NCBI RefSeq assembly: GCF_003206615.1 | Contig: NZ_PZJW01000004.1 | Coordinates: 186,001-250,000, forward strand | Direction of reading: 5' to 3' | Source of the DNA: Salinicola acroporae | Lineage (GTDB): Bacteria > Pseudomonadota > Gammaproteobacteria > Pseudomonadales > Halomonadaceae | Length of the DNA: 64,000 nucleotides | Part shown: positions 23,985-46,315 of the stretch, one piece after another | Numbering within the stretch: position 1 is the first letter of the stretch | Layout of the letters: every line of letters begins with the position of its first letter | Program-made: the position numbers and the translations under genes | The notes under the pieces: model-generated | What the model was told of the DNA's origin: nothing | Database searches by the model: none | The model's input: the letters and a program-made list of their open reading frames with translations, nothing else

Positions 23985-24914
23985 ATGCACTACGGTATCG
24001 ATGTCGGTGGAACGAAGACCGAGATCGCGATCTATGACCGGAACTGGGCATGTCTCGATCACTGGCGTGAACCGACGCCGTCCGACGATGCCAAGGCCTT
24101 TCTGTCGATGCTGGCCACGATGGTGCGGGAGGCCGACCGACGCTGCGCTGGCCGGGGTACGCTGGGATTCGGGTTCCCGGGCGTGCTCGATGAGCGCGGT
24201 CACCTGATCACGGCGAATCTGCCTGGACTGCGTCCGCTGGTGCTCGAGACGGCGCTGGCCGCGGTCCTCGATCGAGCCTTCGTGATCGAGAACGACAGCC
24301 GCTGTTTCATGGTATCGGAAGTCGGTCCCGGTGGGGCGGCGGAGGGGGCGAGGCACGCTTTCGGCGCGATCCTGGGGACGGGCGCTGGGGGCGGCGCCAT
24401 CGTCGATGGCCGACTTCTCAGCGGTGCAGGCCGGTTCGCCGGCGAATGGGGGCATCTGCCGCTATCCGCCGCCTTGGCGAGACGTTACGACCTGCCGTGC
24501 ATCGCCTGCGGCTGCGGCCTGGCGGGTTGCCTGGAGACCTATGTCGCCGGGCCCGGCCTGGTAAGGTTGCATCGTCATTTTGGTGGGGCTTCGGAGTCCG
24601 CCGAAGAGTGGCACGCGGCCTGGGAGGTGGGCGAGGAAGCGGCGCAGCGCGCCCGGGAGTGTCACCTCGATCTGCTGGGTGGCGCCCTGGCCAACGTGGT
24701 CAAGCTGCTGTCGCCGCAGGTGATCGTGATGGGGGGCGGCCTGGCGACCGTGGAGGGACTGTTGACGGCGCTGCCGGCGGCGATATCGATGCACCTGTTC
24801 CCGGGCGTCGAGACGCCGGAAGTCGTCGGCTCTCGGCTGGGTGCCTCGAGCGGCGTGCGTGGCGCGGCGATGCTGGGCGCCGCTTCAGCGGATGCCGGAG
24901 ACGAACGGATATAA
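23985..24914 (+). CDS. ROK family sugar kinase (NagK/fructokinase-like)
   Basis: This is a 309-residue ATP-dependent hexose kinase of the ROK family. The N-terminal phosphate-1 motif is IDVGGTKTE (residues 5-13), the catalytic Asp is D104 in IENDSRCF, and the zinc site is H157 in EWGHLPL plus C175, C177 and C182 in ACGCGLAGCLETY. There is no N-terminal HTH, so it is a kinase and not a ROK repressor. Sequence style is close to N-acetylglucosamine kinase or manno(fructo)kinase, but the substrate cannot be fixed. The ATG 23985 has GAGGAG upstream; the open frame begins 72 bases earlier. It is a single-gene unit. Confidence 0.85.
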   Translation: MHYGIDVGGTKTEIAIYDRNWACLDHWREPTPSDDAKAFLSMLATMVREADRRCAGRGTLGFGFPGVLDERGHLITANLPGLRPLVLETALAAVLDRAFVIENDSRCFMVSEVGPGGAAEGARHAFGAILGTGAGGGAIVDGRLLSGAGRFAGEWGHLPLSAALARRYDLPCIACGCGLAGCLETYVAGPGLVRLHRHFGGASESAEEWHAAWEVGEEAAQRARECHLDLLGGALANVVKLLSPQVIVMGGGLATVEGLLTALPAAISMHLFPGVETPEVVGSRLGASSGVRGAAMLGAASADAGDERI

Positions 24915-24936
24915 AAAAGGCCGCCCGCGGGCGGCC
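24913..24936 (-). terminator. Terminator between ROK kinase and mscS-type gene
   Basis: The 18-base perfect palindrome GGCCGCCCGCGGGCGGCC (24919-24936) is flanked by A-runs on the plus strand. Read on the minus strand it ends in six Ts, so it terminates the MscS-family gene, and it may also stop the kinase transcript. Confidence 0.85.
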
Positions 24937-24958
24937 TGAAAAAACGGGCAGGATCGAC

Positions 24959-30659: not shown

Positions 30660-30660
30660 G

Positions 30661-31103
30661 ATGCGGCATATCACCCAAGACGGGCTGGACCTGATCAAGC
30701 GCTTCGAAGGCTTCAGCCCGACCATCTAAATTTGCCCGGCGGGGTATCCGACCATCGGCTACGGCCATCTGGTTCGGGATCATGAGCGGGACCGGTACGG
30801 GCAGGGCGTCACCGAGCCAGAGGACCTGCTGCGCCGGGATGTCCAGGCGGCCGAACGCGCCGTCCTGCGGCTGATCGACGGGCCCCTGACCGATGGCCAG
30901 TACGATGCGCTGGTGTCGTTCACTTTCAACCTGGGGGCCGGGCCGGGGCGCTGCAGCGGTCCACATTGCGGAGGAAGGTGAATCGGGAGGCGCATGCTGA
31001 GGTGCCTCCTCAATTCAGACGATGGGTGTGGGCTGGAGGTAAGCGGTTGAGGGGCTTGGTAAAAAGGCGTACTGCTGAGTCGGGGATGTACCTAAGGCCC
31101 TGA
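30661..31103 (+). pseudogene. Decayed phage lysozyme (GH24 endolysin) gene
   Basis: The start MRHITQDGLDLIKRFEGFSP carries the GH24 Glu, but TAA at 30727 replaces the codon before the next conserved part. The same frame continues ICPAGYPTIGYGHLV (catalytic Asp/Thr region) and DGQYDALVSFTFNLG. A frameshift near 30937-30950 then moves to LQRSTLRRKVNREAHAEV and FRRWVWAGGKRLRGLV, ending at TGA 31101. All parts of an endolysin of about 147 residues are therefore present, but broken twice. Confidence 0.8.
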
Positions 31104-31166
31104 ATCTATTGTTTTATCAACGGATAAGATCGTCTATTATTGCACCCGAGGGGGCACAAGGAAACC

Positions 31167-32153
31167 ATGGCTACAGCTGAGCAAATAAAAGCGTTACTTA
31201 AGAGCCACGCTGATCGCGACGATCAGCGGTTCTATTCTATTGCTTTGCAGGTGGCAGCAAAAGAAGCACGTCAGGGGCACCATAAACTGGCGAGCGACAT
31301 AAAAACGATGGTCGAGAGGTCTCAAAAGGGTGTAAAGAATATGGGGCTTGCGGCCGCCAAGCCTACCCCTTTGATTCAGCAACCGAAAGGCGACCTTAAA
31401 GGGCTTCTTGAGCTAACGCATTCTACGGCTCGCGGCAGCGAGCTGGTGTTGTCTAGTGAAGTTAGCGAACGTCTTGAGCAAGTTCTCTTGGAACAACGCC
31501 AAAAGGACCGGCTTGCTCAGTTCGGGCTTTTTCCTCGACGTAAGCTGTTGTTCACGGGGTCTCCAGGTACAGGTAAGACGATGTCAGCCGCAGTTTTGGC
31601 TACCGAACTGAAATTGCCTTTGTACACCATCGTTCTCGATAACTTGATTACCCGGTTTATGGGGGAAACAGCGGCCAAGCTTAGGTTGATATTTGATCAC
31701 ATAAAACAAACCCGTGCTGTGTATCTCTTTGATGAGTTTGATGCCATTGGAACACAGCGTGGTGCTCAGAATGATGTTGGGGAAATCCGCAGGGTTTTGA
31801 ACTCATTTCTGTTGTTTGTAGAGCAGGATGCTTCCGAAAGCATCATAGTGGCTGCTACCAATCATCCCGAGTTGCTTGATAAAGCACTCTATCGGCGGTT
31901 TGACGATATCATCCGATTTGAAAAGCCAGGACAAGATCAAATCAGAAAGCTCATCGAAAATCGCTTGGCTGTATTTGATACCAATTCATTGGCGTGGGCC
32001 GATATCACTGATGCAGCGGATGGATTGAGTTCGGCGGAGGTAACCCGCGCCTGTGAAGACGCTGCGAAAGAAGCCGTTTTGCATCACAACACTAATATTA
32101 CTACAGCGTTGATCACGAAAGCGATTAAACGCCGTCAGTCTGGAAAACAATAA
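31167..32153 (+). CDS. ietA: AAA+ ATPase of an IetAS-like defence pair
   Basis: This is a 328-residue AAA+ protein. The helical N-terminal domain (1-95) is followed by the ATPase core: Walker A GSPGTGKT (131-138), Walker B VYLFDEFDAIG (185-195), sensor-1 Asn in AATNHPE (N232) and arginine finger pair RR (243-244). A small C-terminal lid has GLSSAEVTRACEDA. The start ATG follows AAGGAAACC. Only eight bases separate it from a subtilisin-like protease gene, the two-gene layout of the IetAS antiphage system; the ATPase probably recruits or unfolds substrates, or gates the protease. The gene is much AT-richer than the chromosome around it, which indicates recent acquisition. Confidence 0.82.
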   Translation: MATAEQIKALLKSHADRDDQRFYSIALQVAAKEARQGHHKLASDIKTMVERSQKGVKNMGLAAAKPTPLIQQPKGDLKGLLELTHSTARGSELVLSSEVSERLEQVLLEQRQKDRLAQFGLFPRRKLLFTGSPGTGKTMSAAVLATELKLPLYTIVLDNLITRFMGETAAKLRLIFDHIKQTRAVYLFDEFDAIGTQRGAQNDVGEIRRVLNSFLLFVEQDASESIIVAATNHPELLDKALYRRFDDIIRFEKPGQDQIRKLIENRLAVFDTNSLAWADITDAADGLSSAEVTRACEDAAKEAVLHHNTNITTALITKAIKRRQSGKQ

Positions 32154-32161
32154 GAGGTCCA

Positions 32162-34696
32162 ATGGCGGAACGGAAGCCACATATCCTGCTAGACGGGTTC
32201 GCAAGCCATGAGGCTTTTCGATCACGTCGTACCGGTCGTAATCCCGTCATTCCTCCACAAGACCGTAATTCACATGGTCGATCCTTATCTCACCGATATT
32301 CAGGTGTGCTCTCTCAGTTTCAAAGTCAAAGAGAGCAGGCACCTGAGCCTGTCACAGAAGATATAGGCATCTATGTTGAGATCATAGGGGCGCCAGGTTG
32401 CGACCTGCCGCTGGACAGTCTGGATACCAGTCGTGATTTTAAGCTTCGATCATGTCGTAAGGTTGATGGTCGTGAAGTGGCCGTTGTCTTTATTCCTGAA
32501 TCGCGACGGGACGTATTTCAGCGAAAAATTGACCAATATTTGGACCCTGATAAGGATGGGAAGGGTGGCCCCAGAAATCACAATCTGATTGATAGCATCT
32601 TCGAGATCAAGCTTGCAGATTTACGATCATTCTGGACGGATGATGTGTCACTCTATCCAGCTGATCCACAGCAGCAGGTGTGGTGGGAGCTCTGGTTAAA
32701 GAAACGACCCGAAGACGAGGACCCTATTCAGATCGCGCATCAATTGGCTGAGCGGATTGGAGCTCAGTTGGGCAATACCTCTCTCAGTTTCTTTGACAGC
32801 GTAGTAATTCTGATCAAAGTTTCTGCCCATCAGCTCGAGAGAGCACCGGAATTGATCGCCAACCTCGAAGAACTCAGGCCGGCCAAGGAAACGCCGAATG
32901 TCCTTATTGCGTTATCGCCCAAAGAACAGCATGAGTGGGCTGAGGACCTGAAAGGACGGCTTCATCTCGGCGAGACTGCATCGGCCGTCGTGACGATTTT
33001 GGACACAGGCGTCAACTACAACCATCCTCTTCTTGGTGAGATATTCACGGAGCAACAGGCGGAACGATGGCACCCGGATTGGCCGGGATATGATGACTTT
33101 AACCCGACGAATCCCCTTGCTCCGTTTAATGACCATGGGTCTCGGCAAGCTGGATTGGCAGCGTTCGGTGACTTGCATGCGGCCTTGGTGAGTAGTGAGC
33201 CAATAATGCTGAATCATCGAATCGAATCAGCACGAATTTTACCCCCTGCCGGTAACAACGATCCCGAACTGTACGGAGCCATTACTGTAGGCACGGCAGC
33301 AAAGCTGGAAGTAGGCATGCCGGATTGCTCTCGTGTGTACTCGCTCGCAGTAACTGCTGCGCCGGAGAGAGAAGGCGGACAGCCGTCTTCTTGGTCTGCT
33401 GAAATTGATCAGTTTTCCTCAGGTATGGAAGACGGTAAACAGCGACTTTTTGTGATTTCAGCGGGTAACAATGGAGACATCTCACCGGATCTGGATTGCT
33501 GGGAGCAAGTCCACCTTGCTCAGATAGAGGACCCTGCCCAGGCGTGGAATGCTCTCACGGTCGGTGCTTATACTGAAAAGACCACTAATGACGATCCAAG
33601 CTTCAATGGATGGTCACCTTTGGCAGAATCGGGTGATGTCGCGCCTGCAACTCGTTCCGCAGTTAACTGGGCCTGGAGGAAGCATGCGCCCTATAAGCCG
33701 GATGTAGTTGCAGAGGGCGGTAATCGGCTGCTCTCACCAGATGCTACGGAAGTTTCGAACGCTGACGTTATTTCGTTGTTAACAACATCTGGCAGAACTA
33801 CAGGGCAGCTGTTCGAGACCACTGCCGATACCAGTGCTGCGTGTGCTTTGGTTTCAAGGCAAGCTGCGATACTCATGGCTGAATATCCGGAATATTGGCC
33901 TGAAACAATTCGTGCACTTATAGCGCATTCGGCCGAGTGGACGCCCAAAATGTGGGAACGCTTCGGGCTCTTGCACCAGCAACACAGCCCAAAGCTGTCC
34001 AAGGAGACCATGCTCAGGTGTGTTGGCTACGGGGTGCCCGATCTCGAGCGTGCCAGATACAGCGCCAGTCATGCCTTGACGCTCATTGCTCAGGACAGTT
34101 TGCAGCCCTTTGCCAAAGATGCTGATGCTTCGAACTCAGATGATCCCAAGCTGAATGAGATGCAGCTCTACCAGTTGCCATGGCCTATTGAGGTATTACA
34201 GCAATTATCGCCTGAGTTGGAGGTGAAGCTCCGGGTAACGTTGTCCTACTTTATTGAGCCCAATCCAGGGCGCCGAGGGTATCGTCGACGTTACAGCTAC
34301 CAGTCTCACGGGCTTCGCTTCGAGGTTATCCGTCCTGGCCAGTCGCTGGAAAATTTCCGGGCATCAATCAATCAAAAGGCGAATGAAGAAACTGAAGATT
34401 ACAGTGGTCCAGAAGGAGCCAATGATGGTTGGCAACTTGGGCTTCAGTTGCGCACCCGGGGTGCATTGCATTCCGATATCTGGACAGGCGCGGCTGCGGA
34501 CTTGGCCGATATGCACACCACAGCTGTGTATCCAGTGGGCGGTTGGTGGAAATATCGGACTGCTCAGGATCGGTGGCAAAACTCCGTGCGCTACAGCCTG
34601 ATTGTCAGTGTTGACGTGCCCGACGAGAGTATCGACATATATTCCGTTGTTGAGAACCTGGTTGAGACTGCGGTTGAAGTCAGTACGGAAATATAG
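32162..34696 (+). CDS. ietS: Subtilisin-like (S8) serine protease of an IetAS-like pair
   Basis: This is an 844-residue protein without signal peptide, so it is probably cytoplasmic. The N-terminal 270 residues have no family I recognise. The S8 domain has the triad Asp281 in VVTILDTGVNYNHP, His325 in FNDHGSRQAG and Ser558 in ADTSAACALVSRQAA, with the oxyanion Asn in ISAGNNGD (436/437). The Ser block departs from the usual GTSMAAP. The C-terminal 200 residues are beta-rich. It is translated right after the AAA+ gene and shares its low GC. Such pairs confer phage resistance in published screens; the host target is not known to me. Its stop is 21 bases from the convergent helicase stop. Confidence 0.84.
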   Translation: MAERKPHILLDGFASHEAFRSRRTGRNPVIPPQDRNSHGRSLSHRYSGVLSQFQSQREQAPEPVTEDIGIYVEIIGAPGCDLPLDSLDTSRDFKLRSCRKVDGREVAVVFIPESRRDVFQRKIDQYLDPDKDGKGGPRNHNLIDSIFEIKLADLRSFWTDDVSLYPADPQQQVWWELWLKKRPEDEDPIQIAHQLAERIGAQLGNTSLSFFDSVVILIKVSAHQLERAPELIANLEELRPAKETPNVLIALSPKEQHEWAEDLKGRLHLGETASAVVTILDTGVNYNHPLLGEIFTEQQAERWHPDWPGYDDFNPTNPLAPFNDHGSRQAGLAAFGDLHAALVSSEPIMLNHRIESARILPPAGNNDPELYGAITVGTAAKLEVGMPDCSRVYSLAVTAAPEREGGQPSSWSAEIDQFSSGMEDGKQRLFVISAGNNGDISPDLDCWEQVHLAQIEDPAQAWNALTVGAYTEKTTNDDPSFNGWSPLAESGDVAPATRSAVNWAWRKHAPYKPDVVAEGGNRLLSPDATEVSNADVISLLTTSGRTTGQLFETTADTSAACALVSRQAAILMAEYPEYWPETIRALIAHSAEWTPKMWERFGLLHQQHSPKLSKETMLRCVGYGVPDLERARYSASHALTLIAQDSLQPFAKDADASNSDDPKLNEMQLYQLPWPIEVLQQLSPELEVKLRVTLSYFIEPNPGRRGYRRRYSYQSHGLRFEVIRPGQSLENFRASINQKANEETEDYSGPEGANDGWQLGLQLRTRGALHSDIWTGAAADLADMHTTAVYPVGGWWKYRTAQDRWQNSVRYSLIVSVDVPDESIDIYSVVENLVETAVEVSTEI

Positions 34697-34717: not shown

Positions 34718-37462
34718 TTAGCGGCTTGCTCCCCACCCAGTGCTCATAAATTGCGCAAAATCCCTTCGTGACAGAACATCAGAACAATCCCTCCAGTCCT
34801 TTTCAGAGGGCTGCATGGTCGTGGTGTAGCGGAGGTCAAATCCGGTTGCTTCTTTCTGAGCGTTGATATATTCATCCATCTTCTCGCCCAGGGTTTCGAT
34901 GTCATCAATCCATTCGTCCTTGATGGTATCCGGCAGTGAGCCGAACAAGTTGTAGCGATCACGCATTCGTTCCGAGAGTCGTTCATATACCGTCTCGTCT
35001 ACGGTTTTTTCGTTGACAAGATTGAGCATATCGACTTTCTCGCGCACTTGGCCAAAACGCTTGATACGACCAATGCGTTGTTCCAGGCGGGTGGGGTTCC
35101 ATGGCAGGTCGATGTTAATCAGAGTTCCCAGTGTTTGTAGGTTGAGGCCTTCACAGGCGGCATCCGTAGCTACCATGATTCGGATCTCATGCTCCGCAAC
35201 CATCTTCTTCAATATTTCGCGTTCGCTGAAGACGCTGTCACCTTTTTGATAGAGGCGGCTGCGTCCAGCACCGGCATATAAGCCGATGGCTTCATCCGGG
35301 TAACGGTCCGCGAGTGCGTCGGCGACCCACTTGGCGGTGTCATAGTACTGGCTGAAGATGATGACGCCGTGGTCGAGCCACTTTTCGCGCTCCAGGTAAT
35401 GAATCACAGCGCTGAGCTTGGGGTCTTTTTCAATACGCTCCAAGCGATCGATCAGACGCTGCAGCACCGTGCGCTCCTCCCCCGTTTCCAAGGTCAGGTC
35501 TACTTCTTGCTCGTCTTCCTCTTCATGTACGGTGCGACCTTCCAATAGCATGCGTGCAGTACTGAGCCCAGCGGCGATACTGGAGCAAATACGCTGCTCC
35601 ATCAGGTTTTTCATAAAGCCGCCACCTTTACCGCGCTTTGTCAAGGCCTTGCCGAAATTGCGCGCCTCGATATAGGCCTGGCGGAAGTCCTCGCTGGTAC
35701 GCAGCGCCTTACCTTCGAACAGGGCGTTGAACAGATGAATTTCCTTGGCCAGGCTGGAATCCGGATGAACATCCACGCCTACTTTGGTTAGCAGGCCAGC
35801 GTCTTCCAGTGTTGTCCGTTTCCGCAGCACGATATGACGCACGAGCGGATTTTCCCGTTGAAAAAAGGTCGCACCGGCCATCTCGCGGTGGAGTTCATCT
35901 TCCAGTACTTCGCGCGCGTCCTCGGTCAAATCAGTGAATGGCTTTGCCGTCTGCCAATCATCGCTTGTGAGCCCAAGATCCTGTCGGATGGCACTGTATA
36001 AGCGCCGAGCCCGTGGTTCTTGCGTTGAGTCCACAACCGGGAGTGGTGAACGAAGGAGTTCCCAGGAAAACGAGGGTTCAATAACTTCTTGCTCTCCAGC
36101 CAGTATGGGTAGCACCTCCCGCGGGCGGTGCCATTTGGCGAAATCGTTGCCCAGAACAAACTGACCCTTGCCTTGATGGAGAATGCCCATCAGGTCCCAT
36201 AGGTCTTCTGAACGGGTCTGGATCGGGGTGGCTGTACCCAACAAAACGTGATCTGCCCTTGCGGAGATCTCTCGCATAAACGCAAGCAGCTCGTTGGGAG
36301 TGCCCGCATCGCGACCAAATCCCTGGCGGCTGCGGGCCTTATGGGCCTCGTCGAGAATGACCAGGCCGTAACGCAAACCCAGTAAATGTTGTTTTTCCAG
36401 GGAATCACGCGTCATTAAACCAGTGGAGACAATCCCAATGCGCAACGGGCACTTGGCGATTTGCTCGCGGCCTGCGGCGGATATTGTGCGGCCATCATAG
36501 TCCAGCCAGACTTTTTTCTGGGTATCCCAACGGGCACCGGGGATGCCGAGTTTATCAGTCATCTCCGTCTGCCACTGCTCACAGAGTGTCGCCGGAGCGA
36601 AGATCACTACCGGCCGGCGCGCTTTCTGTTCCTTGTCGCTGAGAAGGCACAACGCCAGTGCGGCAACACCCAGAGAAAGTGTCTTGCCCAGCCCCACTTC
36701 ATCCGCCAATAACAAGCGCACGATAGTGTGATTGTGATAGTGGCGCAGACATTCGGTGACAAACCCTTGCTGCCAGGGCTGAAGGAACAGGCCTTCCCGA
36801 TAAAGAGGTGATTCCACCAGCGCCGCCGGTGCCAAATCCTCGTCATCGCCTATCTCGTCAAACAGCACTTCCCGGCGATAGCCACGCCTGCGCACTTCAC
36901 GGATCACTGCCTCAGGAAGCGGTCGGGCGGCATTCCAAAGGAAGTCAAACTCCTCTTCGATCCACGCCACCCCTTTGGCTGATTCATCCTCCCAAAGAAT
37001 TTCGTAGTGGCGTTGCCACCCGTTACGGGTTTCGTTCATCGAACCGATAAAGCCAAGCTTGCGTCCATCAGCCAGTTCGATGACGCCAGCCTTGCCGTGC
37101 AGAAAACCGCAGATGCTATCCGGCGCCACACGCACCGCTTGGCCATGCTGCACCAGGAAGGCATCCAGGCGGCGATAGCGTTCACGGTTGAGCAGCGCTT
37201 CAGCCTCCAGCCCCTGTTCGTTCCAGCGGCCAATCATCTTGGATTCGCGCAACTGGGCGACTTTGAGGTCGTCCGGGTGGATGTCTACATTGGAGACAAT
37301 CTTGACCTCAGGGATCGCCTCCAATAGTTCATTGGCGACTTCAAACAGTGAGCTGGTGAAATAGCCTGCGATGCGTTTATAGCTGCGCGCGCCCTTGAGG
37401 TGCTCCAGCAGGAATGAGCTATCCAGCCGATGGGTGCGGGAGGAAAACCGGCGTATGGTCAT
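34718..37462 (-). CDS. SNF2/DEAH helicase with N-terminal PLD nuclease-like domain
   Basis: This is a 914-residue protein and the last gene of the methylase defence operon. Residues 1-165 form a phospholipase-D-like domain with one HxK motif (H122-x-K124, in GFLHGKAGVIEL) and the matching FIGSMNET. The superfamily-2 helicase core follows: Walker A ADEVGLGKT (253-261), DEAH box VILDEAHKAR (368-377) and motif VI RLEQRIGRIKRFGQ (792-805). It probably translocates on DNA and may cut or remodel it. Similar PLD-helicases occur in DISARM-like and helicase-methylase-ATPase (Hma) systems. GC is below the flanking chromosome. Confidence 0.88.
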   Translation of the reverse strand: MTIRRFSSRTHRLDSSFLLEHLKGARSYKRIAGYFTSSLFEVANELLEAIPEVKIVSNVDIHPDDLKVAQLRESKMIGRWNEQGLEAEALLNRERYRRLDAFLVQHGQAVRVAPDSICGFLHGKAGVIELADGRKLGFIGSMNETRNGWQRHYEILWEDESAKGVAWIEEEFDFLWNAARPLPEAVIREVRRRGYRREVLFDEIGDDEDLAPAALVESPLYREGLFLQPWQQGFVTECLRHYHNHTIVRLLLADEVGLGKTLSLGVAALALCLLSDKEQKARRPVVIFAPATLCEQWQTEMTDKLGIPGARWDTQKKVWLDYDGRTISAAGREQIAKCPLRIGIVSTGLMTRDSLEKQHLLGLRYGLVILDEAHKARSRQGFGRDAGTPNELLAFMREISARADHVLLGTATPIQTRSEDLWDLMGILHQGKGQFVLGNDFAKWHRPREVLPILAGEQEVIEPSFSWELLRSPLPVVDSTQEPRARRLYSAIRQDLGLTSDDWQTAKPFTDLTEDAREVLEDELHREMAGATFFQRENPLVRHIVLRKRTTLEDAGLLTKVGVDVHPDSSLAKEIHLFNALFEGKALRTSEDFRQAYIEARNFGKALTKRGKGGGFMKNLMEQRICSSIAAGLSTARMLLEGRTVHEEEDEQEVDLTLETGEERTVLQRLIDRLERIEKDPKLSAVIHYLEREKWLDHGVIIFSQYYDTAKWVADALADRYPDEAIGLYAGAGRSRLYQKGDSVFSEREILKKMVAEHEIRIMVATDAACEGLNLQTLGTLINIDLPWNPTRLEQRIGRIKRFGQVREKVDMLNLVNEKTVDETVYERLSERMRDRYNLFGSLPDTIKDEWIDDIETLGEKMDEYINAQKEATGFDLRYTTTMQPSEKDWRDCSDVLSRRDFAQFMSTGWGASR

Positions 37463-37485
37463 GGGTTAGCATCCATCCATTGACA

Positions 37486-40400
37486 TTACTGTCCCAGTGC
37501 CCTCAGGTTTTTAAGTCGAGCACCGAGTACTTCGGCGGCTTCACGGACCGTTGCTTCCGGAGCTTTTCTCTCCATAAGCCCGAGCATGTCAATCAGTAGC
37601 GGGCGAACCTCCATAAAGTCCGGCATATCTTGCTGAAACTGCTGAATCACCGCTTGTGGCTCGATTTCTGCCAGCAACTGTTGTAGGCCAATAATCAGAT
37701 GGCCCAACCAGGTAGGACCGATTTCAGTGCCGTCCGTGAGTTCTCTTGAGGTGAACTCGGTCACCCGCTTGAGGCGAGCCGCGTTGGCTTTCATGTCACC
37801 CATGACCCTGGCGTAGTCCTGTACCCGGAAGGCCTTGGCGAAGTTCTGATAGTTATCCAGTTTGGACGCGCCAGTGGTTTCCATATCCATCATGCGTAGG
37901 TAAAAGCGCTGGATGCCGGACAGCCGAGCCCAGGTCTCAGCGCCTAACCCCTCTGGCACCAGCAGGCTATTGGCTGCCTCGGCTGCCTGCTGCACAATTT
38001 CATCGACCACTGTAACCTCGCCCTTGTTGCGCGGACGCAGAGCAAAGCTGGTGACATCCTCGCCGCCGATGGTGGTGTAGGCTGTCAGCACCTTCAGTGC
38101 GGCAGCGTAACCTGCCATTTGCAAGTCGGAGTCGTTGAATACCGGCTCACCGTGTTTATCCTTAATCTCTTCATTGAGATGCATCATGGATTCGATCTGA
38201 CGCTGCACCTCGGCGCGCACGGCGGGCAGAATGCTTTGCTTGAAGCCAGCCCGATCACCCTCAGGGCGCTTCCTAAGCATCAAGATCACAGTGCCCTGAA
38301 CATAGCCACCTTTCTTGAGCTCTGAAGTGGTCTCGGTGGCGATGTACCAAGCGGCCACAACTTGAAGGCCCGCCGCCCAGAAGATGCTGACCATATCGGC
38401 CCAGACGCCGGTGTCCTGATGGGTGAACATGACACATTGCATGCCGTTTTCTGGCATGTGCTCGGCCATAGCCCGGTAGGCGTCGACCATGCCCCGCCTG
38501 AAATCGTCGTCTGATCCCTTGATCGCTAGAGTGCGTCGTGAATCCCACACCCAATCATCGAACGGCTTGGGCGGGTTCATGCGTAGCCACGCAATGAAAA
38601 ACTCGGTAATTTCGTGGTAGTTGATGGCATCGGCGTAGGGCGGGTCGGTAATGAAGATGTCGCAATCTTGCGAGATTTGACTGGCGGGAACACACTCTTG
38701 GCTGAAGCTAGCGTGAGTAGGCAAGACTGAGCCTCGAACATCGGCATAGAGTGAGTCGAGAAGATAGACAGACGCTCGACATCCATAATTGAAGAGGACG
38801 TTCAAAGCCTGATTGTCAAATACCTGTTTTGTTCCACCACTTCGACCTGGGCCGTCACCGACGGTCCAGCGCGTTAGGCGAGCGCTTGTATTGATTACCT
38901 GGCAAAGTCGAAGCGCGAGCGTGGGGCTGATGTGCTTCATCAGCTCTGCGTATAGAAGCAGTTGCCGGGGATTGAACAAGTGATGCCAGTGGCTCCACCC
39001 ACGCGTTCGTATCGGCTCGTCTGTCTTGTCGCCGGGCTCGATAGCCATGTTAGGCACTAGACCTTCTTTCTGCCAAGTAGGCAGGTTCTGCTCAACAATC
39101 TGATGTACATGACGCTCTCTCTCAAGATCCGCGTCGGTGGGTGCCGCGAAGTAGGTCTTTGGTCTGCCGTCGTTCTCTGTTCCTTTCAAAATCCAGTGTA
39201 TCGCGTAGAGCCGCTCCTGATACACATCATCGGGCTTGGCAATGAAATCCTCTTTCCCCCACTTGCGAAGGCGGTTACCTGTACTGCCTTCAGGAGTGCG
39301 ATATTCCCCACGCAGAGTTCTAATTGAAATGCGGTAGCTTTTTCCATCTAGCTCGTACTGCAGTTCACCGCCTCTCACTGTGCCCAGGCTGGCTTCTCGC
39401 ATTTCCTTTGTGGTAGCGCCGTTCTTGATGCGAATTTCGAACCGCTTCTCGTTGTGATTCGGAACCAGTTTCGCGATGACATTGTCGTTCTTTGATATCA
39501 CCCAACTTGGCGACATGGGCACTAGCCAGCCAGACTCGGGGCATCGAGTCTCCAAGCAATACAGAAACGCTTTTGCGCGATTCCCCTTTTCGTCCTTCTC
39601 AATCGAAAGCTCGTCTACCGCTGACTGGACCGTTCTGGCGACACGACGGTACTCTTCTTCGATCTCGCTTCGTGCCTTCGAGTCCTTGCCGACAATGTTG
39701 AATGCGCCCCACGTTAACATGCAGGCTATAGGGTTCAGGTCGGAGGCATATGCATCACAGCCTGTGCGTGCGGCTTCAAAAGGAATGGAGCCGCCACCTG
39801 AGAAGGTGTCACCGACACGTGGCCGACGCCCAAAACGCAACATGCCCATTTGCTCCACGAGCTCCGGCAATGATTCAACCTTGATCCCCCACTGGGCGTA
39901 GTGGTCGTTCACCGCGGGCCAGACCGGGGCATAGAGCCAAGTCTGATCAACTTCTTCAGGCCGCTTGCAGAAGCTGGCTTTCTCTTCGTAGGTCGAGAAT
40001 GTTCCCAGCGCCCGCTCTATGAGCTGAAGCTTGGCCTCATCCGAAGTGTCCCGATCCCAACGGAGCGAGATGCCTTCCTCCTCCGCGTCGAACGGGCACT
40101 CAAGGTTCAGAAGGCGGTCATCTGCGGAGAGCTCATCGCGCCCCGTTAACGTGAAGTAGTCCCATGGGTTCGAAAGCGAGATACGCGAAGCGATGTGCTT
40201 CGGCTTGAGATCGTTCTGAACAAAAGCACGGCGTGCGAGACCGTGGTCGTCAAAGGCCATCAACTTCTCGAAGATCTCGAGGTCCTTCTCGCTGTCGCCG
40301 GTCTTCGGCAGTAGTGAGCCGAGTACGATGGCGCGCACCAGAATGAGTGGCTTGCGTCCCTTCCAATACGAACCGAGCCCTGTCAGCGTCTGAGCTGCGA

Positions 40401-40533
40401 CCGCCTTGCGCTCGGACTGCGCTTCGAATGACACCTTCTGCGCGGGGAAAACAGTTTCGATGAGCGCCGGGGCGTTCTCAAGTGCGAATGCTGTCAGGGC
40501 CTTGGTTTTTGTTTCAGCTACGACTTCCATCAT
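37486..40533 (-). CDS. DUF1156-type DNA methyltransferase
   Basis: This is a 1015-residue amino-methyltransferase (N6-adenine or N4-cytosine class). An N-terminal DUF1156-like segment (APALIETVFPAQKVSFEAQS, about 21-40) precedes the SAM motif GDTFSGGGSIPFEAA (241-255) and the catalytic motif DPPYADAINYHE (630-641). Their order, SAM site before DPPY with about 380 residues between, is typical of DUF1156 enzymes. It probably marks host DNA as self for the PLD-helicase and the DUF499 ATPase. Two consecutive ATGs (40533 and 40530) are possible starts; the gene begins three bases after the DUF3780 stop. Confidence 0.86.
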   Translation of the reverse strand: MMEVVAETKTKALTAFALENAPALIETVFPAQKVSFEAQSERKAVAAQTLTGLGSYWKGRKPLILVRAIVLGSLLPKTGDSEKDLEIFEKLMAFDDHGLARRAFVQNDLKPKHIASRISLSNPWDYFTLTGRDELSADDRLLNLECPFDAEEEGISLRWDRDTSDEAKLQLIERALGTFSTYEEKASFCKRPEEVDQTWLYAPVWPAVNDHYAQWGIKVESLPELVEQMGMLRFGRRPRVGDTFSGGGSIPFEAARTGCDAYASDLNPIACMLTWGAFNIVGKDSKARSEIEEEYRRVARTVQSAVDELSIEKDEKGNRAKAFLYCLETRCPESGWLVPMSPSWVISKNDNVIAKLVPNHNEKRFEIRIKNGATTKEMREASLGTVRGGELQYELDGKSYRISIRTLRGEYRTPEGSTGNRLRKWGKEDFIAKPDDVYQERLYAIHWILKGTENDGRPKTYFAAPTDADLERERHVHQIVEQNLPTWQKEGLVPNMAIEPGDKTDEPIRTRGWSHWHHLFNPRQLLLYAELMKHISPTLALRLCQVINTSARLTRWTVGDGPGRSGGTKQVFDNQALNVLFNYGCRASVYLLDSLYADVRGSVLPTHASFSQECVPASQISQDCDIFITDPPYADAINYHEITEFFIAWLRMNPPKPFDDWVWDSRRTLAIKGSDDDFRRGMVDAYRAMAEHMPENGMQCVMFTHQDTGVWADMVSIFWAAGLQVVAAWYIATETTSELKKGGYVQGTVILMLRKRPEGDRAGFKQSILPAVRAEVQRQIESMMHLNEEIKDKHGEPVFNDSDLQMAGYAAALKVLTAYTTIGGEDVTSFALRPRNKGEVTVVDEIVQQAAEAANSLLVPEGLGAETWARLSGIQRFYLRMMDMETTGASKLDNYQNFAKAFRVQDYARVMGDMKANAARLKRVTEFTSRELTDGTEIGPTWLGHLIIGLQQLLAEIEPQAVIQQFQQDMPDFMEVRPLLIDMLGLMERKAPEATVREAAEVLGARLKNLRALGQ

Positions 40534-40536
40534 GGG

Positions 40537-41169
40537 TTACTCACTATCGAACAGGTCTAAATCTAGACCTTGTCGGGAAATTTCCTTACGGGCCTGGGGC
40601 TGAAGCAGCTCGCTCTGGGCCACGTCCCCCAGAGCATGGCGCAGAGCCAACCGCCAACCTTTGTAGCCGTCTTTGACGCCGCCTGTGCTCATGGCGGTCA
40701 TGCCGAATAGCCACCAGCGCTCCTCCGGCCGCAAGGCGAGCCAGTTGCGCACGGCCACAGGGATCTTGTCCATATCCATCCCTTCCACCGCCCATGCCAG
40801 TACGCAGAGCTCCTTGCCCAGCAGACGATCCACCGGGTTTTCCCCCGCCTTCCAAGCGGATGCCTTGAGGTTATGTGTTTTAAGCCGGGCGTTGAAGGCG
40901 CGTTGTACTTCGGCACGGATGGCGGTCCAGCGCGGACGTTCCAGCAGCACACGATCAATCACTGCGAGTTCCGCGCTCTGGGTTTGTAGCCCCAGGTATT
41001 CGCTGATTTGTACCCGGCCGGTGTTGGCTTTGGGGATAATGACCTTAAAGTGGTGCGGGTCGGAGGTGGCGGGCACGCCGAAACCCAGCGTCTGGGGTGA
41101 TCCCTGACGCCGGGTTTTGTCGTTGCTCGGTCTGCCATGAGGGCTGCGACTGGCGCGCGCTGTGGGCAT
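40537..41169 (-). CDS. DUF3780 family protein
   Basis: This is a 210-residue protein of unknown function found with DUF499 and DUF1156 genes. The N-terminal 30 residues are basic and disordered (RASRSPHGRPSNDKTRRQ); the rest is compact with AEVQRAFNARLKTHNLKA, DRLLGKELCVLAWAVEGM and LALRPEERWWLFGMTAMSTG. No catalytic motif is recognised. ATG 41169 is preceded by AGGAGG; an earlier ATG (41193) would overlap the DUF499 gene. Tight packing (4 bases after DUF499, 3 before the methyltransferase) implies a stoichiometric partner, perhaps an adaptor. Confidence 0.82.
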   Translation of the reverse strand: MPTARASRSPHGRPSNDKTRRQGSPQTLGFGVPATSDPHHFKVIIPKANTGRVQISEYLGLQTQSAELAVIDRVLLERPRWTAIRAEVQRAFNARLKTHNLKASAWKAGENPVDRLLGKELCVLAWAVEGMDMDKIPVAVRNWLALRPEERWWLFGMTAMSTGGVKDGYKGWRLALRHALGDVAQSELLQPQARKEISRQGLDLDLFDSE

Positions 41170-41173
41170 TGTG

Positions 41174-44100
41174 CTATTCCTCCTGGGCGACATCGCCTGG
41201 ACGCAGTTCCATGCCGGCTATCTTGGCGAACTCCTTGGCCTCGAAGCCGCTTTCGAACTGGATACCATCCGAGACCGTAATGGCCACCGGTGCTTGGTCC
41301 TCCTTCAGCACGCCTCTCATACTGTTGACGGTGCCTTCGATCATAGCGGCCGTGATCTCCCGCTCCTGGAAGCGTACGGTCACGGTATTTTCACCTTCCC
41401 CGATCTCAATCCGTACTCCCTTGAACTGGGTACCCGCTTGGTCCCGGAAACGATTGATAACCCCAAAAACACGGTCTGTCGTATCCAGGGCTACACGTTT
41501 CCCGCTACCCAGACGCGCTGGCTTGGTGTCGTCGATCTGGACCCGCTTGTCACCGCTGGCGGGAATCTGGAAATCGGCGTTTTTTGTCGCCTCGCCGGCT
41601 TTGGCGTGGACCAGTAGTCGCGCCGCCTGGGGGCCGATTTCGAAAGGCTCCTCGTAGAACTTGCCGTCCTTGGGATTGGAGCCATCGAGGGTGTAGTGCA
41701 TCTCGGCGATGGGGGTGCACTGCAGAGTAACAGTACGTTTATCGCCAGCGGGGGACAGCTGATGGCGAATTTTCAAATCCGCCAACCAGCGCGCCGGTGT
41801 GCCGACGTCATATTTGCCGGTGGGGTCTTTGACCAAAAAATAGAGCGTGCCCTCGGCGGTGTGGAGGTTTTCCAAGTCATCCACCTGCGGGTCGCTTTCG
41901 GAAAAGTCGGGCTTGGTGGAGTAATACACCACCGGGCTTTCGCCTGCGTGGCGTGGCGTCAGGCTGAGGATGGATTCCCCCGTCTCAGGGAGGGTGCTCA
42001 CAAGAGAAACGTTGACGCTGGTTTTCTCTTTTGGGAAGGGGCCTTTCTCGATGTAGCCATCTTCGCCCAACCGCCAGCGACCTTGCTTGAGAGCCTCCGC
42101 TTTAAGGGTGTCCATACCACTAGCACCCGGCATACATGGCCAGGCAGGATTACTTTTTGCACGAGAAACTACGTCCTTCCACGGAGTACGACGGTTTTCC
42201 TTGCCCGCAGGCCAGAGGTATTCCTCGGCCATGGCAAAGTACTGGCTAAAGTCTTCGGTCAGGTCCATCGCCAGCTTGTAGTTGGCGCGCGGGCTCGCTA
42301 GCAGGGATTCAATTTGTGCTTCGGCGGATTGGTCGCCTTCGCCCAGTTTTAAGCCGTTATCAATGGTGACGGGCGCCAGAAACTCGCGACCGTCAATCTC
42401 GTCGACGCTGGGGAAATAAACGCGGTTGTAAGCCGCGGAGAGCGCCTTGTTGAATCGATCCTCGGCCTCTTCCATACGATCGCGGGCTTCTTCGTACAGG
42501 GTGTCTCCCGGTTTGAGCCGCTTATTGATCTGCTCGATGGCGTAGAGCTCACGCAAGCGGTCCTCGACGGCATCGGTGAGATGGCTGTCCTGCCCGGTGA
42601 GTACCAGCAAGTTGTTTTTCTCCTGCTGATAGTCGAAGAAGTTTTGCAGCTCGCTGGGCGGCACCTTGCCATCTGGCTTGATGACGATCAGCACGCGAGG
42701 GCCGCTCAGTTTTAGTTCGTCCAGCTGTGGTAGCACCTGTACGTCCTGATAGGCCTTCTTGCGCATCGGCTGCAGAATGCCGATCAGCCGATTGATCAGC
42801 GCCTGATCGATTTTGGGCTGAGGCACCTCTTTGGCGTTGCGCTCGATCTGGCGCGAGAGGTTCTCAGTCTCTTTAATGAATAGCCGCTGTTCTTCACGAT
42901 GCAGGTACCATGCCTGTTCCCGTAGCCGCTGCAAGGCGTCGAGAAAGGCGTCCGCTTTGCGGTTTGGCGCAGCCAGAAACTCGATGACCTCGCTTTCGGA
43001 TAGTCCGATGCGTCCGCCTACTGCGCGAGACAGGGACGATGCCAGCAGCAAAGTCATGACTTGCTGCGCCGCATCTTCCCCGAGCTCGTTATCAATCATT
43101 TCTGCGATCGAGTCGCCATCATCGGCAATATCATGAGTGATCGCAGGTATCAGGTTAGGAGCGATGCGCTCGATTTCATCTTTGACTTGAGCGTCGTTGA
43201 AGTCGAGGTGCTGGGTGCCCACCAGGAACACATCATCGGTCTCCCGCTGATCGACACTCTTGAGCAGTCGTGCAGTGAACTGCATCAGACCGCGGGTCTG
43301 GCGGAAGCCTTCATTTTCTTTGAATAGGGCGACCAGGTGCTTGAACGAGGGGTGGAAGGGGTAAGTTTCTCGCACCTGCTCGGCGATTTGTTCGATACTG
43401 GCCGCGACGATATAGCCGCCATCCTCGGCCTTCTTGACTTGCTGTGCATATTCTTCCGCAATTTCCGCAATGGTGCCTTCATCGGGGAGCTCGTCGATCA
43501 GGCGCTTCTTGAGGATCTCGTAGATTTCATTGCCGGCCAGCTGCACCGGCGTGATGGTCATGGCCTGGCGGCGAGCTTCCTGCTGGAGATTGTCTACGGC
43601 TTCGGCCAGTGCCTTGGTCTGTGCCTTGTAGCTGCCGGAAAGGTTGGCGATGACGATACAGCAGTTCGGCAGCTCCAGGGCGGCGCTCATCAGTGCACTC
43701 AAGCTATAGACCGCCATATCTGCCAGAGTGCCGTTGCCGAACATCTGGGTTGAGGCATTTTGTAGGTAGGGCGGAAGCTCATCGAGAAGGATCAAGGTGG
43801 GCTGGTTGCCGATGATTTCCTTCCACATGCGCTGGTCCACGGCCTTGGGGCCATTGACCCAGTAGGGCTTGATCGCTTCCTCTTCACCAAGCTGGGACGC
43901 AATTTCACCCCAGATGTAGTTGTCCGGATTGTTTCGGCCATTGAAAGCAGCGATGCGTGCGTTGCCGAACTCGACGCGTTCATTCAGCTCCGCCGGCAAG
44001 ACCTCGGGGCGCAGGTGTGCATGCCTAGCCAGCAAACCGAGGGCGATCATCATATGGGTTTTACCGCCACCCATGGCCTGGGTGAGTTCGAACACCGCCT

Positions 44101-44299
44101 GATCGGACTTGCCGGATAGGCGGAGCATGCCCTCGCGGAACAGTTGTTCCATGCCGTGAGTGATGAAGTTTCTGGAGAAGAATTCGCGACCATCCCCGGC
44201 GTCGTTAATCAGGTCCGTCAGGTTCTCGATCCCGGAACTCATCCGATAATCCTGAATGACCGGATTAAAGCGGCAGGCCTGTTTAACTGTCTTGATCAT
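41174..44299 (-). CDS. DUF499 family ATPase
   Basis: This is a 1041-residue P-loop ATPase. The Walker A variant is TQAMGGGKTHMM (K80-T81), the usual form for DUF499 although it lacks the canonical first Gly, and Walker B is LILLDELPPYL (D173-E174). Long helical regions follow, and the C-terminal about 300 residues are beta-rich with LTPRHAGESPVVYYST and CTPIAEMHYTLDGSNPKDG, probably a chitobiase-like or Ig-like module. It is the likely motor or sensor of the methylase-helicase system. The start overlaps the stop of the upstream RHH gene (ATGA), so the two are coupled. Confidence 0.87.
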   Translation of the reverse strand: MIKTVKQACRFNPVIQDYRMSSGIENLTDLINDAGDGREFFSRNFITHGMEQLFREGMLRLSGKSDQAVFELTQAMGGGKTHMMIALGLLARHAHLRPEVLPAELNERVEFGNARIAAFNGRNNPDNYIWGEIASQLGEEEAIKPYWVNGPKAVDQRMWKEIIGNQPTLILLDELPPYLQNASTQMFGNGTLADMAVYSLSALMSAALELPNCCIVIANLSGSYKAQTKALAEAVDNLQQEARRQAMTITPVQLAGNEIYEILKKRLIDELPDEGTIAEIAEEYAQQVKKAEDGGYIVAASIEQIAEQVRETYPFHPSFKHLVALFKENEGFRQTRGLMQFTARLLKSVDQRETDDVFLVGTQHLDFNDAQVKDEIERIAPNLIPAITHDIADDGDSIAEMIDNELGEDAAQQVMTLLLASSLSRAVGGRIGLSESEVIEFLAAPNRKADAFLDALQRLREQAWYLHREEQRLFIKETENLSRQIERNAKEVPQPKIDQALINRLIGILQPMRKKAYQDVQVLPQLDELKLSGPRVLIVIKPDGKVPPSELQNFFDYQQEKNNLLVLTGQDSHLTDAVEDRLRELYAIEQINKRLKPGDTLYEEARDRMEEAEDRFNKALSAAYNRVYFPSVDEIDGREFLAPVTIDNGLKLGEGDQSAEAQIESLLASPRANYKLAMDLTEDFSQYFAMAEEYLWPAGKENRRTPWKDVVSRAKSNPAWPCMPGASGMDTLKAEALKQGRWRLGEDGYIEKGPFPKEKTSVNVSLVSTLPETGESILSLTPRHAGESPVVYYSTKPDFSESDPQVDDLENLHTAEGTLYFLVKDPTGKYDVGTPARWLADLKIRHQLSPAGDKRTVTLQCTPIAEMHYTLDGSNPKDGKFYEEPFEIGPQAARLLVHAKAGEATKNADFQIPASGDKRVQIDDTKPARLGSGKRVALDTTDRVFGVINRFRDQAGTQFKGVRIEIGEGENTVTVRFQEREITAAMIEGTVNSMRGVLKEDQAPVAITVSDGIQFESGFEAKEFAKIAGMELRPGDVAQEE

Positions 44300-44493
44300 G
44301 CTGAATGCTCCCCACTGTTGTCGGTCTCTCCAGGGCTTTCGACGGTGATACCATGCCGCTCGCAGTAATCCCGAATCAGCACTTCCACCATGTTGGCGAT
44401 GGAGCGGTGTTCCTGGTGAGCAGCGATGCGCAAAGCCTCCTTCAGACTTGGGTCGATTCGAAAGGTCAGCGTTGCGGTTTTAGTAGTGGCCAT
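44296..44493 (-). CDS. Small ribbon-helix-helix protein heading the defence operon
   Basis: This is a 65-residue protein with an RHH pattern: beta strand TATLTFRIDPSLKEALRIAA, then helix HRSIANMVEVLIRDYCERHG, as in Arc/CopG/CTM1-type repressors. The open frame reaches further up, but ATG 44493 has GGAGAGGGAT directly before it. It is the first gene of the operon and overlaps DUF499 by four bases. Autoregulation of the operon is the simplest role; a structural part in the complex is the alternative. A toxin partner is absent. Confidence 0.8.
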   Translation of the reverse strand: MATTKTATLTFRIDPSLKEALRIAAHQEHRSIANMVEVLIRDYCERHGITVESPGETDNSGEHSA

Positions 44494-44526
44494 ATCCCTC
44501 TCCAGGAGACCCTGCAAATGTACTGC

Positions 44527-44555
44527 AATATACTTTATCGGAGTGCCCAGCACAA
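44527..44555 (-). promoter_or_regulatory. Promoter of the RHH-DUF499-DUF3780-MTase-helicase operon
   Basis: On the minus strand TTGTGC (44555-44550) and TATATT (44532-44527) are spaced exactly 17 bases, about 35 bases upstream of the RHH start. The -10 matches five of six positions. On the plus strand GCAAATGTACT and GCAATATACT overlap the -10 and the start region in tandem, which could be operator half-sites for the RHH protein. Confidence 0.55.
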
Positions 44556-45155: not shown

Positions 45156-45535
45156 TGGTGGAGGCGGGGGGAATTGAACCCCCGTCCGCCGGCACTCGCC
45201 CATCAGCTCTACATGCTTAGTTCCGTCTTTTGATTTAACTCAGTGCACTCCGACGGGCAGGATGGCACCTTGCGATCTCTCTAAGGTTTAACGAATGTCA
45301 GGAGAGCGCTGACATCCGCGGTCCCATCAGCTTTAGCTCGTATCCCCGCCGCGATGAATGGGCACATCGCTTTGGGGCCAGGCTAACAACTAGCAGTTTT
45401 TACGCTGCCAGTGCGCCTTGAGCGTAGTTTTCGTCGTTTGCGACTATTCAATTGCAACGTTGGATTTACGAGATACGTTACACTCTCGGCATGCACCTCA
45501 GGGATTGTCACCGGCGTCGAAGCCATGTCGCCCCC
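45156..45535 (-). ncRNA. ssrA: Transfer-messenger RNA (tmRNA)
   Basis: This is a tmRNA of about 380 nt that rescues stalled ribosomes with SmpB. Read on the minus strand, the 5' end is GGGGGCGACATGGCTTCGACG and the 3' end pairs as GGCGGGGGTTCAATTCCCCC followed by GCCTCCACCA, giving the tRNA-Ala-like acceptor and T arm with encoded CCA. The tag frame lies inside. The gene lies 76 bases downstream of smpB on the same strand. The 3' end faces the accessory island, consistent with ssrA as an integration target. Confidence 0.95.
45400..45441 (-). other. tmRNA proteolysis tag reading frame
   Basis: The resume codon region reads GCA AAC GAC GAA AAC TAC and so on, encoding ANDENYAQGALAA followed by TAA. 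It ends in the ALAA degron recognised by ClpXP-type proteases. E. coli uses ANDENYALAA; the insertion of three residues before ALAA is within known variation. Confidence 0.9.
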
Positions 45536-45611: not shown

Positions 45612-46091
45612 TCAGGCATGGTCCCTCATGACCCGGGCCTTCTCGCGGTTCCAGTCGCGCTCTTTCTCGGTGGCGCGCTTGTCGTGCAATTGCTTGCCGC
45701 GCACCAAGGCCAGCTCGCACTTGACCAGATTCTGCTTCCAGTAGAGCTTGAGCGGCACACAGGTGTGCCCCTTCTCCTGGGTTCTGGAGAATATTCTGGC
45801 GATCTCCTTGCGATGCAAGAGCAGCTTGCGCGTCCGGGTCGGGTCCGCAAGCACGTGAGTGCTGGCCGTGTTGAGCGGCATGATATGACTGCCCAGCAGC
45901 CACGCTTCGCCGTTCTTGACCAGAATGTAGGTGTCGGTCAACTGGGCCTTGCCTGCGCGAAGGCTCTTCACCTCCCAGCCAGCCAGTGAAAGGCCTGCCT
46001 CGAAGGTCTCGTCGATGTGATATTCGAACCGAGCCTTCTTGTTCTGGGCGATCGTGTTGCTGCTAGGCGCGTTGCCTTTTTTCTTACCCAT
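45612..46091 (-). CDS. smpB: SsrA-binding protein SmpB
   Basis: This is the RNA-binding partner of tmRNA in trans-translation (159 residues). The OB-fold core is visible with [20 protein letters not shown] and [20 protein letters not shown], and the basic C-terminal tail [18 protein letters not shown] mimics the codon-anticodon helix. The ATG at 46091 has AAGAGGTGTC before it, while the open frame begins 51 bases earlier. It lies directly upstream of ssrA and is divergent from ratA. Confidence 0.96.
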
Positions 46092-46315
46092 GACACCTCT
46101 TTGCGGCGTTATCCGGTATGCCCCACTGCCGATGCATTCCATGACCTGCGGTCCGGCGCGCCGTGCGCTATGTTCATCACATCATGCGCCGCGAGGGTTC
46201 ATGCGCAAGGCATCGTGTGAAGTCTAGTTATGAGGGCAGCCGTGATACCATTCAAGCCATTGAAAACGATGCCCCATGATACGCATGTCGTGGCGATAAA
46301 TCAGTGGAGACCCCT

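Follow-up and report, generated by a model that had tools for sequence, protein, structure and literature searches.

A ribbon-helix-helix protein as a predicted autorepressor shared by a Type-2 BREX-related operon of Salinicola acroporae and other methylation-based restriction systems

Type-2 systems related to bacteriophage exclusion (BREX-related, BR) are described in the main text of a recent survey as sets comprising a DUF499 ATPase, a DUF1156 N6-methyltransferase (MTase), an HKD-SNF2 helicase without a Tudor domain and a DUF3780 protein, the last of which occurs in 98% of Type-2 BR taxa and has been suggested to read DNA modification (Rakesh and Krishnan 2026; PMC12839542). We examined one operon of this content in a 64,000-nucleotide stretch of the Salinicola acroporae genome (NZ_PZJW01000004.1, positions 186,001 to 250,000 of the forward strand), hereafter the window, where it occupies positions 34718-44493 of the minus strand and begins with a gene for a small ribbon-helix-helix (RHH) protein. 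The five-gene system is of a kind already published; the RHH controller, its operator and their sharing with other systems, which we did not find in print, form the new part. The comparisons presented here make it probable that the RHH protein is an autorepressor that DNA-methylation-based immune systems share as an interchangeable control cassette.

Small regulators that head immune operons are known from several systems, including the C proteins of Type II restriction-modification (R-M) systems, BrxR (WYL) of BREX and CapW of the cyclic-oligonucleotide-based anti-phage signalling system (CBASS). These proteins bind their own promoters, as is predicted for the RHH protein, and for some Type II systems the C protein is the textbook controller. 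All three are helix-turn-helix (HTH) or WYL proteins, whereas the controller in the window belongs to an RHH family found before several R-M types, and its predicted fold is RHH rather than the HTH, XRE-type fold of C proteins. The repressors CopG, Arc and Omega have in common the RHH fold, repeated operators and autorepression, all predicted for the protein of the window; however, known repressors of this kind control plasmid copy number, phage or toxin-antitoxin genes and are not known to control restriction systems. To our knowledge, the control of Type I and III R-M, BREX-related and DISARM (defence island system associated with restriction-modification) operons, and their establishment in a new host, remain largely open. 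In its searchable text, a 2013 review of R-M regulation (PMC3874152) covers the Omega RHH repressor and mentions RHH proteins in the toxin-antitoxin context only. A text search of the main text of PMC12839542 returned no mention of RHH/MetJ proteins, autoregulation, a promoter or a transcription factor, and an RHH controller with an operator, shared among unrelated restriction systems, was not found in the searchable literature.

The operon and its predicted control region comprise the following features.

44550..44555, minus strand: -35-like hexamer TTGTGC of the operon promoter (sequence; register over 35 relatives)
44527..44532, minus strand: -10-like hexamer TATATT, 17 bp after the -35 hexamer (sequence; register over 35 relatives)
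44512..44537, minus strand: predicted RHH operator TAAAGTATATTGCAGTACATTTGCAG, overlapping the -10 box (matrix scoring)
44296..44493, minus strand: RHH protein, 65 aa, first gene of the operon, predicted autorepressor (alignment, AlphaFold, Foldseek)
41174..44299, minus strand: DUF499 AAA+ ATPase, 1041 aa, with an Fn3-associated stretch at 857-888 (NF042962, Fn3_assoc, Walker A/B)
40537..41193, minus strand: DUF3780 protein, 218 aa (NF042961, PF12635)
37486..40533, minus strand: DUF1156 N6-adenine-type DNA methyltransferase, 1015 aa (NF042963, DTFSGGG and DPPY)
34718..37462, minus strand: PLD-nuclease/SNF2 helicase, 914 aa, predicted effector (NF042964, Pfam domains, motifs)

The five genes are intact, uninterrupted and closely packed from 44493 down to 34718, in agreement with an earlier reading of this DNA made from its letters alone (the sequence-only reading). 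Because gene order and content are repeated in relatives, the arrangement is not due to chance. The RHH stop and the DUF499 start share an ATGA at 44296-44299, as that reading had noted, and its gaps of 3 nt (DUF3780-MTase) and 23 nt (MTase-helicase) hold; its 4-base gap before DUF3780 does not when the first ATG is used, from which DUF3780 overlaps DUF499 by 20 nt, the 4-base figure corresponding to an in-frame ATG eight codons later (M9, position 41169).

Hidden Markov model searches bore out the family assignments of the sequence-only reading, with all four large proteins passing the NCBIfam equivalog cut-offs. The DUF499 protein scores 1538.5 bits against NF042962 (cut-off 1200) and 31.2 bits against Fn3_assoc; it carries Walker A (GGGKT) and Walker B (LILLDE) motifs, which are found in 68/69 and 69/69 full-length DUF499 frames, respectively. 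The DUF3780 protein reaches 282.3 bits with NF042961 (cut-off 200) and 261.5 bits with PF12635, and its structure model has a mean predicted local distance difference test score of 79.1. For the MTase, NF042963 gives 1362.6 bits (cut-off 1000) and Pfam places the DUF1156 domain at 28-90 (65.6 bits); DTFSGGG and DPPY are present, and the methyltransferase motifs are kept in 60/60 copies. The PLD helicase (1221 bits with NF042964, cut-off 1100) contains PLDc_2 at 19-176, SNF2 at 238-446 and Helicase_C at 683-804, and a Tudor model is absent from its five Pfam matches. Its HGK...GSMN motif is present, and helicase motifs occur in 48/48 copies; the HxKxxxxD site reads HGKxxxxE in the window, and of the 48 full-length copies, 26 have E at that last position, 17 have T, three have D and one has K, while one is unmatched there.

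These four proteins correspond to the NCBIfam/PADLOC 'anti-phage' set of DUF499, DUF3780, DUF1156 and PLD proteins that Gao et al. reportedly tested in 2020, which differs from the operon of the window in that the RHH protein is matched by no PADLOC or NCBIfam model at the limits used. Every architectural feature of Type-2 BR for which we looked is present, namely a DUF499 AAA+ ATPase of the anti-phage family with an Fn3-like stretch, a standalone DUF3780 protein, an N6-MTase with an N-terminal DUF1156 domain and an SNF2 helicase with an N-terminal HKD/PLD nuclease in place of Tudor, and therefore the system itself is already known. The RHH controller and operator are additional to the published description in the main text of PMC12839542. 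By gene content and family, the operon is thus an intact, RM-like anti-phage system of Type-2 BR, related to the helicase-methylase-ATPase (Hma) system and distinct from it. The sequence-only reading had rightly placed it among RM-like defence operons related to Hma, and was right that the RHH and DUF3780 genes needed explaining; it had also made its proposal depend on their co-occurrence with the other genes elsewhere, and DUF3780 is a defining component of the published type. Its equation of the operon with Hma is hardly credible in spite of the common ancestry of the ATPase, MTase and SNF2 helicase, since the scores of the PADLOC Hma models (HmaC 168, HmaB 68 and HmaA 129 bits) amount to roughly one ninth, or less, of those of the dedicated models (DUF499 1502, DUF1156_MTase 1428 and PLD_Helicase 1417 bits), and the N-terminal PLD nuclease and DUF3780, both lacking from Hma/Type-1 BR as described in the main text of PMC12839542, belong to the definition of Type-2 BR. 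One Hma locus (L139) is headed by the RHH family of the window.

The RHH gene begins at the ATG at 44493; the open reading frame listing gives a longer frame from 44628. Its product has a sub-threshold Pfam match to RHH_5 (24.1 bits, cut-off 26), for which the fold prediction is supportive: the AlphaFold model consists of a ribbon followed by helices at 15-28 and 32-47, the ribbon-helix-helix fold of CopG/Arc repressors, and the top Foldseek matches in the Protein Data Bank include CopASO, Arc and CopG, with probabilities of 0.90-0.99 but E >0.1 for this short chain. Residues M1, K5, T8, R12, K18, A25, R30 and S31 are invariant over 50 aligned homologues.

To place this gene among relatives, we used the best 80 of 113 DUF3780 loci, which were chosen for closeness to the DUF3780 of the window and are all at least 62% identical to it in the best segment. 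The gene preceding DUF499 could be assessed in 65 of them; among the other 15, three have an RHH gene. It stands directly before DUF499 in 49/65 and is absent in 16, so that its co-occurrence with the system, left as a check by the sequence-only reading, holds among close relatives. The 49 junctions consist of 43 with a 4-nt overlap, four with a 2-nt gap, one with a 1-nt overlap and one duplicated head, and all 17 Escherichia coli loci have an RHH or antitoxin label before DUF499. In the locus with the duplicated head (L037:1138-3939), the RHH gene, the operator and the DUF499 start are repeated in tandem about 2.4 kb apart. By eye, two loci counted as lacking the gene (L023:1319-1441 and L075) retain apparent remnants of the C-terminal part of RHH upstream of DUF499.

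The predicted operator (44537-44512) ends 18 bp before the RHH start and overlaps the -10 box. It consists of tandem 10/11-bp repeats, AGTATATTGC-AGTACATTTGC-AG, placed 10 and 11 bp apart; this is one helical turn, the spacing expected for neighbouring RHH dimers. Across a non-redundant set of 35 loci, no two of which are more than 60% alike in the 48 nt that precede, its consensus, TACTGTAaagTGCAGTACATTTGCAG, carries 34.0 bits in 26 columns, versus 2.5 bits in a 26-column stretch further upstream. With look-alike rows also dropped, the leave-one-out score is at least 21.0 bits at 54/54 sites (52 loci, the second copy in the duplicated locus and the window), whereas no site in the 600 nt before DUF499 exceeds 1.7 bits in the 16 assessable loci lacking RHH, and 2031 control windows reach at most 8.0 bits. 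The E. coli site, which lay outside the training set of the matrix, scores 41.5 bits. In the host genome the 15-base core occurs exactly once and at three other places with two mismatches, versus one place for the reversed control pattern.

The promoter hexamers in their 17-bp register were the best of 50 registers tried over the 35 non-redundant relatives (a mean of 6.26 of 12 consensus matches, the next register giving 5.06), and this register places the operator over the -10 box and the expected transcript start; a generic promoter scan of the window did not list the TTGTGC/TATATT pair. The operon thereby appears to possess repeated sites at its own promoter, as RHH repressors do.

A sister clade of RHH proteins (support 100/97) provides a link between protein and site. 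At strand position 10 its seven aligned rows have N, whereas T stands there in 40 and S in three of the remaining 43 rows, and CGTTACATT or CGTTACAAT lies upstream in 11/11 loci of this N10 clade that were examined. Residue 10 of the RHH protein and the site thus change together, which supports the RHH protein as the binder of the site. The N10 clade heads an R-M-type gene directly in 1/11 loci (an HsdR gene); a further locus has an HsdM-like third open reading frame, and the other neighbours are Cas9, HipA, a response regulator, a peptidase, a TonB receptor and unclassified genes. In two N10 loci (L147, L194), an 84-aa gene of no assigned family overlaps the RHH stop.

The RHH family of the window (family 1) is also found before other restriction systems. 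Searches with the RHH protein alone gave 39 places in 38 of 369 class genomes and 25 places in 22 of 311 genomes of one order. We examined 29 of the 38 class places besides the window (G612:C3, G558, G775, G679, G546, G095, G503, G534 and G702 being left out) and all 22 new order places, and took as close those with E at most 1e-8 outside the N10 clade; one order place (L187) ended at a contig edge. First neighbours of loci that had no PADLOC or Pfam scan were classed by phmmer to scanned relatives. Close family-1 proteins head R-M-type genes at 15/17 places in the class draw and 15/16 assessable places in the order draw, together 30/33, against 1/11 for the N10 clade (Fisher p 1.2e-6, an optimistic value because the loci are related and not independent). 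The 30 places comprise 16 Type I, seven Type-2 BR, two Type III, two Type-3 BR-like, one Hma/Type-1 BR, one Type II and one DrmD (DISARM) locus. For L087, the Type-3 BR-like label, set beside the Type-3 description in the main text of PMC12839542, draws on a DUF499 match that is marginal, a DUF1156 match below threshold, an SNF2 helicase and a protein of 331 aa, PglZ-like by eye but with no Pfam match; L136 received it for its phmmer likeness to L087. Among the more distant non-N10 places that were examined (E >1e-8), L205, L206 and L207 head R-M genes and L208, L209 and L210 do not.

Elements of the predicted operator accompany some of these genes. Allowing no more than one mismatch, the core CAGTACATT is found in the upstream 90 nt of 15/33 family-1 loci other than Type-2 BR, taken at all similarity levels, and a second copy (at most two mismatches) lies 10-11 bp away in 11 of those 15; several such promoters have the half-site in tandem, as in CAGTACATTACAGTACATT, present in both L137 (Type III) and L142 (Type I). 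In a tree of the RHH proteins, with few columns and most forks open, the copies from Type-2 BR loci are not gathered in a clade of their own, separate from the copies of other systems, a pattern that fits swapping among systems and is no proof of it. In several R-M loci (L137:335-1552 on the minus strand, L150, L186 and, as a fragment, L138), a divergent gene whose product starts MARHYST...FRQ.PNALLARYF shares the RHH upstream region; no Pfam or PADLOC model matches the copy in L137.

A number of observations weigh against the proposal of a shared autorepressor. In an even draw of the class, the RHH gene precedes DUF499 in 1/6 other genomes with DUF3780 (G609), and no RHH match at E up to 10 was found in the DUF3780 regions of the other five or of one genome (G305) from the phylum draw. 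The RHH gene is therefore missing from more distant DUF3780 loci and marks one branch of the system rather than the whole; our confidence is slightly lowered because of this class-draw count. Some Type-2 BR loci without RHH have a different small gene upstream of DUF499 and others nothing obvious. By eye, these small genes are RHH-like in Pseudomonas (L060, L061, L064 and L090), AlpA-like in L058 or excisionase-like, L059 also being among these loci, and one on an Acinetobacter plasmid (L089) is annotated as XRE-type. The order that was searched had been chosen because G609, one of its genomes, has an RHH-headed BR operon, and two of its loci (L181, L183) appear, from their equal lengths, to be the same contigs as L021 and L017, already in the sample. 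By our rule, three of the 33 close RHH proteins head no R-M gene (L154, L203 and L199); L154 was scored as a miss, although by eye its next frame resembles part of an N6-methyltransferase, with no Pfam match. The Type II gene counted for L140 lies about 0.8 kb from the RHH gene; dropping L140 and counting the N10 locus with the HsdM-like frame (L147) gives 29/33 versus 2/11 (p 4.5e-5, optimistic for the same reason). Among the 30 places, the RHH gene is interrupted by a stop in L189 and L204 and damaged or atypical in L200, L202 and L152. The one-mismatch core rule fails in 18/33 family-1 loci other than Type-2 BR, several of which have a decayed or mis-started RHH; the scripted start codon is visibly wrong in L153, L204 and L206, all three of which have a core-like stretch upstream and were kept as failures. 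L141, in which an intact RHH has no site upstream, is a counter-example.

From the gene content, the operator conservation, the co-occurrence of RHH and operator, the joint change of residue 10 and site, and the use across systems, all read from sequence, we infer the following course of binding, repression, methylation, cleavage and defence, together with its purpose. RHH dimers would occupy the tandem repeats, which cover the -10 box, and repress the whole operon, the RHH gene included. Because the RHH gene is the first and is translationally coupled, this would be a simple negative loop, in which the MTase and the nuclease are kept low and balanced and rise quickly when the RHH protein is absent, as on entry into a new host, or is lost; such a loop would permit fast establishment and a low steady level of a nuclease that could cut the DNA of its own host. 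As judged from their families, the MTase would mark host DNA, the DUF499 ATPase and DUF3780 would help to recognise unmarked DNA, and the PLD-SNF2 protein would translocate on unmarked DNA and cut it. With the half-site CAGTACATT, the RHH family would serve as an interchangeable control cassette for Type I, II and III R-M systems, BR types 1-3 and probably a DISARM-type operon.

Other roles for the RHH protein were weighed against this autorepression. It may be an activator-repressor of the C-protein kind, holding restriction back until methylation has been completed, a reading that draws on the same position and role as the C genes of Type II R-M systems (PMC3874152, in its searchable text) and on tandem repeats that permit graded binding; we regard it as unlikely, because the MTase and nuclease lie in one operon behind one promoter, which leaves no simple delay between them, and because a site on the -10 box fits repression. 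Less probable still is a structural role, in which the RHH protein would belong to the restriction complex as a subunit and direct it to DNA, the part proposed for DndE in relation to DndD. In its favour, DndE has two RHH domains and an ATPase as its partner (PMC10853773), and most loci with the RHH gene show translational coupling between it and DUF499; yet members of this family also stand before HsdM, HsdR, Type III Mod, Hma helicase and DrmD genes, among which there is no common partner, and a strong site lies directly upstream of the RHH gene. We give very little weight to the view that the RHH gene merely travels with a 26-bp element whose function is to bind a host factor or lies in the mRNA leader: the element does overlap the promoter and the predicted mRNA start, but it was not found in the 16 assessable loci without RHH, changes together with strand residue 10 and is present in many different hosts. 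It is equally improbable that the RHH protein serves as a type II antitoxin against DUF499 or another product of the operon, for although RefSeq labels the E. coli homologue an antitoxin in 2/17 genomes, no small toxin gene adjoins it in the window, where the next gene, with a 4-nt overlap, encodes the 1041-aa DUF499 ATPase, and its downstream partners elsewhere are non-homologous large enzymes.

We suggest, tentatively, that one RHH family with one operator code may be a general controller of methylation-based immunity in bacteria, its promoter, repeats and gene forming a mobile cassette that passes between operons of Type I, II, III, BR 1-3 and DISARM type. Systems within one cell would then cross-repress each other because the half-site is shared, so that a resident system would set the level of an incoming one, whether to co-operate with it or to exclude it, and one regulator could, in principle, give a phage the means to silence several systems. 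Cross-regulation between immune systems within one genome is thereby raised as a question, for which two genomes of the order draw (G898, G935) may be considered, each with two family-1 RHH places, some decayed. A 65-aa protein and a clearly defined predicted operator before many restriction operons make this control directly testable, and the pair provides a new marker for finding restriction operons.

The DUF3780 system is patchily distributed. It was found in 1/97 relatives (the genome of the window only), in 2/398 phylum and 7/369 class genomes (both counts including the genome of the window) and in 20/72,556 plasmid records, and 17/5,426 complete E. coli genomes carry at least 80% of the RHH-DUF499-DUF3780 stretch. 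Among the matches listed, the closest DUF3780 relative is that of Marinobacter lutaoensis, at 88% identity.

Gene content varies among the relatives. In some, genes for a DarT toxin and a macrodomain (DarG-like) protein lie between DUF3780 and the MTase (L011:8532-9179, L027:11251-12306; similar starts in L034 and L036); a text search of the main text of PMC12839542 found neither DarT nor DarG named. Four loci (L035, L048, L053 and L081) have two extra genes between MTase and helicase, the first of which in L035 matches the PADLOC candidate PDC-M28B with 603 bits. One E. coli locus (L086) encodes a DUF3780 protein with a C-terminal DUF4357 domain (17365-18465) and, after the PLD helicase, an annotated restriction endonuclease (24416-25285). 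A Proteus phage record (KY420199) contains a DUF499 C-terminus (gp5) and a DUF3780 (gp4), both shortened, the latter being by eye nearly the E. coli sequence; a captured fragment, a decoy and an assembly artefact are candidate explanations for these pieces.

The operon lies in a region of low G+C, with 0.49-0.60 per kb over 31-45 kb of the window versus mostly 0.62-0.70 before 31 kb and beyond 48 kb. On one side it is flanked by the tmRNA gene (45156-45535) and smpB (45612-46142), and on the other by a convergent AAA-ATPase/subtilase pair. This pair (31140-34696, plus strand, the ATPase probably starting at the ATG at 31167) resembles the IetA/IetS defence pair, with PADLOC scores of 257 and 107 bits and NCBIfam scores far under the cut-offs. 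Marinobacter lutaoensis has two minus-strand frames at the corresponding place, and by eye the ATPase N-terminus is nearly identical. At the left edge of the low-G+C block (30660-31010), a phage-lysozyme-like stretch (KRFEGFSPTI) can be recognised by eye and is seemingly broken.

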